Source: a virus
IMG/VR virus record: IMGVR_UViG_3300043331_000249
Span: 1-25,133 of that record
Direction: 5' to 3' (one strand)
Length of the DNA: 25,133 nucleotides
The notes under the pieces were generated by a model that saw only the letters and a list, made by a program, of their open reading frames with translations, was not told the DNA's origin and ran no database searches. A program made the translations under genes and the position numbers. Below are positions 17,863-23,290 of the stretch, piece after piece. Positions within the stretch are counted from its first letter, which is position 1. Every line of letters starts with the position of its first letter.

Positions 17863-18189
17863 ATGATCGAATATCAGTCAGGCGACTTAGCCAGGCTGCT
17901 AGCTGACGCCCCACCCCACGACCCCGGCACCAACCTGATCAGCACGGTGATGCCACAGGACCAGGCTAACGAGATGGAGGACGACGTACACGCGCTGTTC
18001 ATCGTGGGTTGCATGTCGCACCAGGCGGCGCCACCCCCCGACTGGGCCGAGCGCGTCGTCTGTTCAGTCACCCAGGCAGCCTACCTGCTGGGCAGGCGGC
18101 ACGGAGCCGAGGACGCATTTCGGGCGGCAGACCAGCTCGCCAACCTGGACCCCCGGCAGTTCGAGGGAGGTAGCGGCCTTGGGCAGTGA
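17863..18189 (+). CDS. Hypothetical protein, 108 residues
   Basis: ATG 17863 follows GAGGAGGCGCTCCCCCG. The product (MIEYQSGDLARLLADAPPHD, VMPQDQANEMEDDVHALFIV, then SVTQAAYLLGRRHGAEDAFR) is helical and acidic. Its end overlaps the nuclease start by 11 bases, so the two are probably co-translated. A partner of the nuclease is conceivable, without direct evidence. Confidence 0.65.
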   Translation: MIEYQSGDLARLLADAPPHDPGTNLISTVMPQDQANEMEDDVHALFIVGCMSHQAAPPPDWAERVVCSVTQAAYLLGRRHGAEDAFRAADQLANLDPRQFEGGSGLGQ

Positions 18190-19051
18190 CCTCGAACCGC
18201 ACGTCGTGTCATGGTCCGAGCTGGACGACGGACGCCAATGCCCGCACAAATGGGACCTCGCGTGGCAGGACAGGTGGCGCCAGCCAGACGACGCGGACTC
18301 GCCACCTCCCCTCGCCATGGGCACCCTCGGCCACAAGGTGCTGGAGGCGCACTATCGGGCGCTGATGGACGGAGCCACCCTCAGTCACGCAAGAGACGCT
18401 GGACTGGCGCAGCTCGCCACCTCCCCCCGGAGCCCCTACGCAGACGCGATCGAATGGGTGTACGGCCGGTTTATCGAGCTGTACGGCGCGGACCGGCAGT
18501 GGCGGATCATCGGCGTCGAGGAGCGGATCGAAATCCCGCTGGATGCGCGGTTCCGTCTGAAGACCCGAATCGACCTGCTGGTCGAGGATCGGAGCCGCCA
18601 GAACGCGCTGGTCCTCGTGGACTGGAAGTTCAGCAGCCGCCTGCTAGGCGACCGTGAACTGGCGTTCGATGATCAGTTCGGGTTGTATCAGGCTGCGATG
18701 CGGGACTCAGGGCGGCCGGTCCTATACTGCCTGTACGGGCAGAACCGCGTCCCCCCGAGGGGGAGGTTGCCTTTGGATCCGGAGCAGCCGCTGGATACGT
18801 GGTTCAGCCGGGTGCCCCTATACCGCACCGACGTCGAGATGGACCGGATTATCGATGAGGCGCTGGATGAGTACCACACGCTGTACGACGGGAAAGTGAC
18901 TGGCAGCCTGCCTCGCCGTCCGGACACCGACCGATGCAAGTGGCGGTGCAGGTTCACCGTCCCGTGCCTGCACGGGCGGAAGCACGGACCACAACGCGAG
19001 GTCGAGCTGCTGGAGGCGCACGGCTTCGTCCAGGACCACACAAGGCACTGA
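18179..19051 (+). CDS. Cas4/RecB-like PD-(D/E)XK exonuclease with Cys cluster
   Basis: TTG 18179 is chosen because GGGAGG lies eight bases upstream. The 290-residue product shows a complete PD-(D/E)XK order: C21 (RQCPHKW), H52 (GTLGHKVLEAHYR), D132 (KTRIDLLV), D148 and K150 (LVLVDWKFS), and the QFGLYQ motif at 166-171. Three C-terminal Cys (C253, C257, C263 in CKWRCRFTVPC), with C21, could hold an Fe-S cluster as in Cas4 and AddB-like nucleases. It is likely a DNA exonuclease making ssDNA for recombination or replication. The Sak4-like ATPase and ssDNA-binding-like protein are nearby. Confidence 0.8.
   Translation: MGSDLEPHVVSWSELDDGRQCPHKWDLAWQDRWRQPDDADSPPPLAMGTLGHKVLEAHYRALMDGATLSHARDAGLAQLATSPRSPYADAIEWVYGRFIELYGADRQWRIIGVEERIEIPLDARFRLKTRIDLLVEDRSRQNALVLVDWKFSSRLLGDRELAFDDQFGLYQAAMRDSGRPVLYCLYGQNRVPPRGRLPLDPEQPLDTWFSRVPLYRTDVEMDRIIDEALDEYHTLYDGKVTGSLPRRPDTDRCKWRCRFTVPCLHGRKHGPQREVELLEAHGFVQDHTRH
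18300..18310 (-). repeat. 11-mer repeat GGGAGGTGGCG, copy 9
   Basis: The plus strand CGCCACCTCCC is read as SPPP in the nuclease gene. Confidence 0.72.
18415..18425 (-). repeat. 11-mer repeat GGGAGGTGGCG, copy 10
   Basis: The plus strand CGCCACCTCCC is read as LATSP in the nuclease gene, in a different frame from copy 9, only 115 bases away. Confidence 0.72.
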
Positions 19052-19138: not shown

Positions 19139-19381
19139 ATGGATCAGCCCGTCTGCGGTCAGACACCCAAGCGCGAGCTGATGATCGTCGTCCAGCTCAC
19201 CGTCGCCGACTACCGCGACGAACCACCCACCGAACGCGACATCCGCAACTACATCGACACCAGCCTGACCGAGTGCGAGTACCACGAGAGCGACTGGCAC
19301 GTGCACGGCGCCAGAGTCACAGGGTGGGGACCTCAGGGCAGCACCCGCACCGTGACCGACATCAGCACCGAGGCCGTCTGA
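19139..19381 (+). CDS. Hypothetical protein, 80 residues
   Basis: ATG 19139 follows AGGAGGCGC. The product has a polar start (MDQPVCGQTPKRELMIVVQL), a helix (ERDIRNYIDTSLTECEYHES) and a strand-rich end (DWHVHGARVTGWGPQ). The size and alpha-beta plan would suit a small regulator, but no family is recognised. It is a single-gene unit. Confidence 0.65.
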   Translation: MDQPVCGQTPKRELMIVVQLTVADYRDEPPTERDIRNYIDTSLTECEYHESDWHVHGARVTGWGPQGSTRTVTDISTEAV

Positions 19382-19394
19382 CGCCGGTTCCCGA

Positions 19395-19424
19395 TTGACA
19401 GCCGACCCCCGCCCGTGGTACAAT
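19395..19424 (+). promoter_or_regulatory. Promoter for the Sak4-like gene
   Basis: TTGACA (19395-19400), 18-base spacer, TACAAT (19419-19424), preceded by TGG. Confidence 0.88.
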
Positions 19425-19432
19425 GAGGGTGG

Positions 19433-19463
19433 CTCGCGCTGGCCTCATAAGCCAGAGGGCGAG
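19433..19463 (+). ncRNA. tRNA-Met anticodon-arm-like leader element
   Basis: A CTGGC/GCCAG stem (19439-19443 with 19451-19455) holds the 7-base loop CTCATAA, the anticodon loop of CAU tRNAs. A second stem, CTCGC/GCGAG (19433-19437 with 19459-19463), encloses it. The block resembles the D-arm to variable-loop part of an initiator tRNA, but acceptor and T arms are absent. Confidence 0.5.
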
Positions 19464-19481
19464 TTAGGGGACGGCAATCTC

Positions 19482-19522
19482 CCGGCAGGCCCCCGTCCGT
19501 GTCTTGCCGGACCGGACGGGGG
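19482..19522 (+). promoter_or_regulatory. Two crossing stems, attenuator- or pseudoknot-like
   Basis: Stem A pairs CCGGCAGG (19482-19489) with CTTGCCGG (19503-19510), one G-U pair. Stem B pairs CCCCCGTCCG (19490-19499) with CGGACGGGGG (19513-19522). The stems cross, so they form an H-type pseudoknot or compete. They lie upstream of the RBS at 19545. Confidence 0.5.
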
Positions 19523-19556
19523 TGCTGTTGTTCCAGAACCCCACGAGGAGGCGCAG

Positions 19557-20480
19557 TTGGCACGCACGAGGAAGCCACTGAAGGAAGCCCGAGAGCCATG
19601 CCGGGTCACCTACTACGGCCCGAACGGCAGCGGGAAGACAACCGCCGCAGCTCACATGGCCCACCTAGGGGAGGTGGCGGTGGTCGCGGCGGAGCCGGGA
19701 TTCCGCAGCCAGCGACTGGCGACCCTCGGGATCCCCGTCGACAACCTCCAGCTCGCGCTGGCGACCTACGACCCCACCGTCCCCGACGTCACCGCCAACA
19801 ACCTCGACACGCTGTTCATGGACATGAGGCAGGAATATCAGGAGAGCCGGACGACCGCCCCCGTGGGCCTCCTGCTCGACACCGTAACCGAGGTTCAGGC
19901 GCTGACGACCGACGAGGTTCGGATCGAGGAGCTAGCCCGAGCCAAGCGACAGAACAGCAGCTACGACGAGAGCGACTGGTTTGTCGACGTCGGATGGCAC
20001 GGGATCGTCGTCACCCGGGTGAACCGGCTGTTGAGGCAGTTCCGGGACCTGCCGTGCCACTGGGCGCTCGTCTGCCAAGAGGAACACCGCGAGCCGTTCC
20101 GTGGCAAGGGCAGCAGGAGCGTCGGACCGGCAGTCAGCCCCGGAGTCCAACAGGCCGTCATGGGGTACTCGGACTTCGTGATCGAGCTGGAGACGCTGGA
20201 CAACCCCGACGACTCCAAGAACCCATGGAGGATCGGTTGGACGGTCCCCCACGGCAGCCCCACCCACAAGGCCAAGGACCGAGACGGGGTGTTGCCCGCG
20301 CGGATGGCGTTCCCCACCTTCACCCGGGTGATGTCGTACTACACTGGGGAGCTGACCGCCGCAACCGACGACCTCCAGAGGGAGCTGGATGACCTGATCG
20401 CATCGGGCGACCTGGCCCCAGCCGACACCCGACCCCGCAGGGTGAGGGCCAGCGAACTCGCCGCAGCCAAGACGCGATGA
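19557..20480 (+). CDS. Sak4-like RecA-fold ATPase (putative recombinase)
   Basis: TTG 19557 is chosen because GAGGAGGCGC precedes it; the open frame extends upstream across the promoter. The 307-residue product has Walker A GPNGSGKTT at 21-29, a RecA-like core, and Walker B APVGLLLDTV with D108. Later landmarks are ELARAKRQNSSYDESDW and LVCQEEHREPFRGK. This matches AAA_24/Sak4-type phage ATPases that help single-strand annealing or strand exchange. A Cas4-like nuclease upstream and a DUF669-like protein downstream form the expected recombination group. Expression follows a long leader with tRNA-like and crossing stems. One 11-mer lies inside. Confidence 0.78.
   Translation: MARTRKPLKEAREPCRVTYYGPNGSGKTTAAAHMAHLGEVAVVAAEPGFRSQRLATLGIPVDNLQLALATYDPTVPDVTANNLDTLFMDMRQEYQESRTTAPVGLLLDTVTEVQALTTDEVRIEELARAKRQNSSYDESDWFVDVGWHGIVVTRVNRLLRQFRDLPCHWALVCQEEHREPFRGKGSRSVGPAVSPGVQQAVMGYSDFVIELETLDNPDDSKNPWRIGWTVPHGSPTHKAKDRDGVLPARMAFPTFTRVMSYYTGELTAATDDLQRELDDLIASGDLAPADTRPRRVRASELAAAKTR
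19669..19679 (+). repeat. 11-mer repeat GGGAGGTGGCG, copy 11
   Basis: Read as GEVAV in the Sak4-like gene. Confidence 0.72.
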
Positions 20481-20528: not shown

Positions 20529-20546
20529 GGTGCTGGCCCTGGATCG

Positions 20547-20615
20547 TGGTCGCCCCCCACGTCGCCGTCAAAGACCAGGATAAGACGGCGACAGTGCGCG
20601 GGGTGAGACGCACCC
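20547..20615 (+). ncRNA. Structured leader with possible pseudoknot
   Basis: GTCGCCGTC (20561-20569) pairs with GACGGCGAC (20584-20592). GACCA in its loop (20573-20577) is complementary to TGGTC upstream (20547-20551). A second hairpin, GGGTG/CACCC (20601-20605 with 20611-20615), precedes the RBS. Confidence 0.45.
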
Positions 20616-20642
20616 TGTCAATGCCCTAGGAGGGGAAGCACG

Positions 20643-23085: not shown

Positions 23086-23142
23086 GGGGCTTTGGCGCCG
23101 GTCCTCTCCCGGCTTGCCGCATCCACCCCCCGGATATAGCAA

Positions 23143-23177
23143 AGGGGACCGGGGGGCTTCTGGAACCCCGGTCCCCT
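23143..23177 (+). promoter_or_regulatory. Strong leader hairpin
   Basis: AGGGGACCGGGG (23143-23154) pairs with CCCCGGTCCCCT (23166-23177), 12 perfect pairs, 11-base loop. It lies between the promoter and the RBS at 23189 and could act as an attenuator or stabiliser. Confidence 0.6.
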
Positions 23178-23203
23178 CTGCCAGATGCGAGGAGGCGCTC
23201 GCA

Positions 23204-23290
23204 ATGGACCCGGACAGGCGATCCATATACGCAGTGTATCACGGGCGTTATCGGCCCGTCAAGCTCGAAGATGCACGGAGCCCAGAGTGA
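23204..23290 (+). CDS. Leader-like 28-residue protein
   Basis: ATG 23204 follows GAGGAGGCGCTC. The product is MDPDRRSIYAVYHGRY followed by RPVKLEDARSPE. Its stop overlaps the GTG of the primase-helicase gene (GTGA), so it may serve translation coupling or be a small protein. Evidence: good RBS and overlap; no family. Confidence 0.5.
   Translation: MDPDRRSIYAVYHGRYRPVKLEDARSPE

Follow-up and report, generated by a model that had tools for sequence, protein, structure and literature searches.

The operator of the Escherichia coli thrS gene imitates the anticodon arm of its own tRNA, tRNA-Thr, and when its anticodon-like sequence was changed to that of methionine, control passed to methionyl-tRNA synthetase (MetRS) (PMC9976931). 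Anticodon arms are also the substrates of VapC toxins, which cut them, that of tRNA-fMet included (PMC7180214). In mycobacteriophages, tRNA anticodon loops are a frequent location of attP/attB cores, some of which are short and do not reconstruct the tRNA (PMC10865867). The phage locus described here shares with the thrS operator a 5' mRNA leader hairpin that reproduces a tRNA anticodon arm in both its loop and its stem. It differs from it in that the gene served is one for a recombinase rather than a synthetase, and in that only one arm is present. On balance, and by a slim preference, we read it as a generic folded 5' leader of a Sak4-like gene, in which the likeness of the first hairpin to tRNA-Met came about by descent or by chance.

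The window, that is, the whole stretch of DNA that was analyzed, is a virus record of 25,133 bases, probably a phage fragment, whose genes resemble those of actinobacteriophages (Streptomyces, Arthrobacter, and Gordonia phages). The gene in question (19557..20480, plus strand, TTG start, 307 aa) encodes a Sak4-like ssDNA annealing or RecA-like recombinase with the Walker A motif GPNGSGKT; the protein matches the profiles phrog_124 (E = 8e-16) and AAA_24, the former confirming the assignment of the leader to a Sak4-like gene that an earlier note on this DNA had made. It is preceded on the same strand by the ribosome-binding site GAGGAGG (19545..19551, as read from the sequence), whose GAGGAGGCGC motif also stands before several other genes. 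Upstream of the leader lie a PD-(D/E)XK exonuclease gene (18179-19051; phrog_1218), a small ORF (19139-19381), and then, immediately before the leader, a sigma-70-type promoter, TTGACA-N18-TACAAT (19395..19424, plus strand), which agrees with the consensus at 11 of 12 positions and has a TG-type extended -10 element. Judging from the -10 spacing, transcription is expected to start at about 19431, which gives the Sak4-like gene a leader of approximately 125 nt.

RNA folding of this leader yields three successive hairpins on the plus strand. Hairpin 1 (19430-19466) consists of an outer 8-bp stem (19430-19437 with 19459-19466; TGGCTCGC/GCGAGTTA) that includes two G.U pairs, an asymmetric internal loop (G / AGG), and an inner 5-bp stem, CTGGC (19439-19443) with GCCAG (19451-19455), enclosing the 7-nt loop CTCATAA (19444-19450). 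Both stems dominate the ensemble, with pair probabilities of 0.65-0.98. The earlier description of a CTCATAA loop closed by CTGGC/GCCAG within a CTCGC/GCGAG stem was thus correct, the latter being the inner 5 bp of the 8-bp stem. Hairpin 2 (19467-19482; GGGGA-CGGCAA-TCTCC) is small and has a pair probability of ~0.6. Hairpin 3 (19483-19531) is long, and combines stem B (19489-19499 with 19513-19523) with a base extension, CGGCAG/CTGTTG. The promoter, hairpin 2, and this extension had all escaped the earlier note. A 12-codon frame with a GTG start (GTG GCT CGC ... AGT TAG; 19429-19467) exactly covers hairpin 1 and, were transcription to begin at 19429, could serve as a leaderless mini-ORF; it is probably a product of chance. 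The generic reading draws support from the promoter directly upstream and from the start of a hairpin with high pair probabilities at about the first transcribed base, but the leader as a whole folds with an energy only moderately better than that of shuffled sequences (z = -1.9), which counts against it.

The earlier note had further described two stems that cross downstream of hairpin 1. Both pairings exist: stem A (19482-19489 with 19503-19510, plus strand) has 8 bp, including one G.U pair, and stem B, taken as 19490-19499 with 19513-19522, has 10 bp, or 11 with the pair 19489/19523, so that the maximal forms of the two compete for base 19489. The full stems cannot coexist. Formed together, they would be connected by loops of 0, 3, and 2 nt; they are therefore alternatives rather than parts of a pseudoknot; an H-type pseudoknot was rejected on these loop lengths and on stability. 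In the ensemble of the full leader, the pairing probability of stem B is ~1 versus ~0 for stem A, and in folds of the growing chain, stem A is never the minimum-energy form. Crossing stems of 8 and 10 bp arose within 61 nt in 1 of 500 shuffles and within 127 nt in 38 of 500, and stems of such size also cross at about four other places in the G+C-rich window. As for attenuation, which the earlier note had also suggested, the competing stem exists, but it goes unpopulated, and stem B is followed by the tail TGCTGTTGTT and by no consensus intrinsic terminator.

The tip of hairpin 1 carries the sequence of a tRNA-Met anticodon arm. Its 18-mer core, TGGCCTCATAAGCCAGAG, was searched for among the 2.9 million viral contigs of IMG/VR and matched exactly in 67 of them: ARAGORN calls tRNA-Met in 54, a T-arm motif is visible by eye in 12, and the remaining match (L040) runs into the end of its contig. 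The resemblance of the arm to tRNA-Met, as first noticed, is thus sustained by 66 of the 67 matches, and the collection holds no confirmed non-tRNA occurrence of the 18-mer. A longer stretch of 21 nt, CGCTGGCCTCATAAGCCAGAG (19437..19457, plus strand), is identical across the anticodon arm in the tRNA-Met genes of Streptomyces phage Blueeyedbeauty and the Arthrobacter phages Atuin and Racecar, tRNA-Met genes being the best BLAST matches of the leader among cultured phages; the best plasmid matches examined (H117 and H119) are tRNA-Met genes as well. Unlike these genes, the leader has no acceptor stem, D-stem 5' strand, or T arm, and the absence of acceptor and T arm agrees with what had been reported at the outset. 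ARAGORN finds no tRNA gene in the window, and Rfam returned no match at the gathering threshold and no tRNA match with E up to 10. An intact or split tRNA was rejected on these two results, and no complete cloverleaf is present.

Such a fragment could be the remnant of a captured or former phage tRNA-Met gene that lost all but its anticodon arm by truncation and now sits in the leader, a history that we consider unlikely. The non-chance match of the 18-mer would fit it, as would the fact that many phages carry tRNA-Met genes with such an arm and that the best alignment, to the tRNA-Met of contig L007, runs from the 3' strand of the D-stem to the variable loop with 32 identities in 36 columns, including a 2-nt insertion. 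However, when the 18-nt core was kept and only the flanks were shuffled, the observed score was attained in 107 of 1,000 shuffles, and the D-arm to variable-loop order read into the leader by the earlier note is hence not significant outside the core. The loss of every other tRNA arm also speaks against a relic, as does the lack of a match between any protein of the window and the flanks of the tRNA-bearing contigs. In another sequence (L115, reverse strand, from ~6867), a copy of the Met anticodon arm, GGCCTCATAAGCC, lies slightly upstream of an intact tRNA-Met and is possibly a tRNA remnant.

The missing 3' half of the tRNA also bears on another explanation, namely, that an integrase targeting the anticodon loop of a host tRNA-Met uses the arm as its attP core. 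The mycobacteriophage cores at tRNA anticodon loops provide a precedent (PMC10865867), but there is no phage tRNA-Met in the window and no tyrosine integrase among the scanned ORFs. An attP site was rejected for want of an adjacent integrase, with no PF00589 match within the 25-kb record, and we regard this explanation as very improbable.

How far the likeness exceeds accident can be gauged from several counts. When the whole window was shuffled 200 times and both strands were scanned, no anticodon-arm hairpin with the loop CTCATAA appeared, and none occurs in 731 kb of DNA from related phages; together with the lack of a confirmed non-tRNA occurrence of the 18-mer among the viral contigs, this weighs against a leader hairpin that merely happens to read like tRNA-Met. 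It also tells against the generic reading, since an exact match of 18-21 nt to tRNA-Met in a leader hairpin is improbable by chance (the loop alone was met in 0 of 200 shuffled windows) and so leaves room for a specific role. On the other hand, a hairpin fixes half of its stem letters, which reduces the independent match to ~16 nt, and generic anticodon-arm-like hairpins occur in the window at close to the chance rate, with 2 and 3 per strand versus 1.5 expected. A 19-nt piece of the leader sequence is found within an unrelated ArsR coding gene of plasmids, which indicates that chance matches of such length do exist. The feature was, moreover, picked out of a scan of unstated size. We judge the resemblance to be non-random at the level of one window, while over a large scan chance could still produce it; as a full account of the arm, chance appears to us distinctly unlikely.

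Comparisons with related phages offer a view of what else precedes genes of this type. The Sak4-like cassettes of Arthrobacter, Gordonia, Micrococcus, and Streptomyces phages arrange the exonuclease, small ORF, Sak4, and following small gene largely as seen here, and some have a dedicated promoter before Sak4; their leaders differ in being short and in having neither the tRNA-like arm nor the long third hairpin. Of the ~45 Sak4 loci compared, four (L070, L072, L085, and L087) have a recognizable promoter and a short leader upstream of Sak4, and in all but L072, the leader contains a small hairpin without CTCATAA, as would be expected if leaders of this kind were generic. Searches with Sak4, the next gene, the exonuclease, and the tail protein uncovered no closer relative above 37% identity, the nearest reaching ≤35% for Sak4 and ≤37% for the tail protein. 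Within 350 nt upstream of Sak4, CTCATAA is absent from all of the ~45 Sak4 loci compared (25-35% protein identity), and the leader was not found upstream of Sak4-like genes in these other phages. The earlier note had looked to relatives that keep the gene and lose the stems as the observation that would speak against it; this is the situation in these loci, at a protein identity of 25-35%, where untranslated leaders would not be expected to persist in any case. The exact 27-mer of the leader is absent from the bacterial genomes searched, and the region of the third hairpin has no meaningful match in cultured phages. A pattern of promoter plus Met anticodon arm was matched elsewhere in five viral sequences and three genomes, and all except one genome match (L123) are tRNA genes or scattered unrelated loci.

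Another reading is that the arm is put to use. A host factor that reads CAU arms, such as MetRS or a VapC-type nuclease cleaving the anticodon loop of initiator tRNA, might bind or cut the leader and so control the expression of Sak4, which we hold to be quite improbable. The same low standing applies to the wider proposal that a recombinase mRNA carrying a faithful tRNA-Met arm at its 5' tip may let MetRS, the initiation machinery, or a host anticodon nuclease control the leader or be decoyed by it. In favor of such use, the loop and the 5-bp stem are identical to those of a real tRNA-Met, a stable stem at the 5' end of the mRNA presents the arm at its exposed tip, and the thrS operator and the VapC toxins are precedents for recognition of this kind (PMC9976931, PMC7180214). 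However, the arm stands upstream of no Sak4 relative, and it is thus not conserved in homologous leaders across the ~45 loci at 25-35% identity. Nor is it close to, or in competition with, ribosome binding, the arm (19439-19455) lying ~90 nt upstream of the ribosome-binding site (19545-19551). The promoter-plus-arm patterns found elsewhere occur in approximately the number that we estimate for chance, and an arm of this type is absent from the phage's other leaders. Of the tRNA-mimic leader originally proposed, then, the resemblance of the arm to tRNA-Met and the link to a Sak4-like gene survive, whereas the crossing fold and the D-arm/variable-loop order do not; a tRNA-mimic switch in the Sak4 leader is a possible but improbable reading.

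The remaining leaders of the phage place that of Sak4 in a broader context. Between 11600 and 23300, both strands carry ~18 near-consensus promoters (TTGACN-N17/18-TANNNT), mostly with TG before the -10 element. In most cases a small gene comes immediately after the promoter, and so dense a set is unusual for a single phage. The leaders in the right-hand part of the window are either ~29-46 nt long or ~106-132 nt long and strongly folded, and the Sak4 leader is one of six of the long type. The five others, driven by the promoters 12469-, 14215+, 15648+, 20500+, and 23057+, are 106-132 nt long and of different sequence, and a 10-bp hairpin lies in the short leader that the promoter 22543+ drives. 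None of the other leaders of the phage contains a tRNA-Met-like arm. Strongly folded leaders are therefore common in this phage and do not depend on tRNA content, a point that favors the generic reading of the Sak4 leader. Among the long leaders, only 12469- and 14215+ (~110 nt each) look related; they share the core GAGGGAC..GGGGGAA(A)TCCCCCCAGGC..GCCGGAACACGGTCCC, which can fold as a multi-branched structure. This core has no Rfam match above threshold and was not found in other viral leaders, its six matches having no promoter context and lying in apparent coding DNA. The leader of the gene that follows Sak4 (20529-20642) forms a 9-bp hairpin, GTCGCCGTC/GACGGCGAC; CCAGG within its loop is, by eye, complementary to an upstream CCTGG, making a contact between the loop and the 5' strand possible. 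The leader at 23086-23205 has a 12-bp G+C-rich hairpin between its promoter and ribosome-binding site and faces a minus-strand promoter at 23262.

In bacteria, a hairpin that begins with the first bases of a transcript is a well-known safeguard against 5'-dependent decay of the mRNA, and a long hairpin can insulate a ribosome-binding region. Under the generic reading, the Sak4-like gene would be a separately promoted early gene of an actinobacteriophage with a three-hairpin 5' untranslated leader. The stable hairpin 1 at its extreme 5' end would shield the mRNA against decay that depends on the 5' end, and the long hairpin 3 may insulate or tune the ribosome-binding region and any upstream read-through. 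Neither role would call for the CAU loop, and the tRNA-Met-like tip of hairpin 1 could be a small captured tRNA fragment or the result of convergence, and need not act as a mimic.

An arm that is only a resemblance would make the Sak4 leader another example of a folded phage leader. An arm in use would amount to a tRNA-mimic control element, tied to recombination, in the mRNA of a DNA phage. With such an element, one could ask directly whether phages use their own mRNAs to sense or decoy defenses that cut tRNAs, VapC released during phage defense being an example of an anticodon nuclease that such a mimic might engage.
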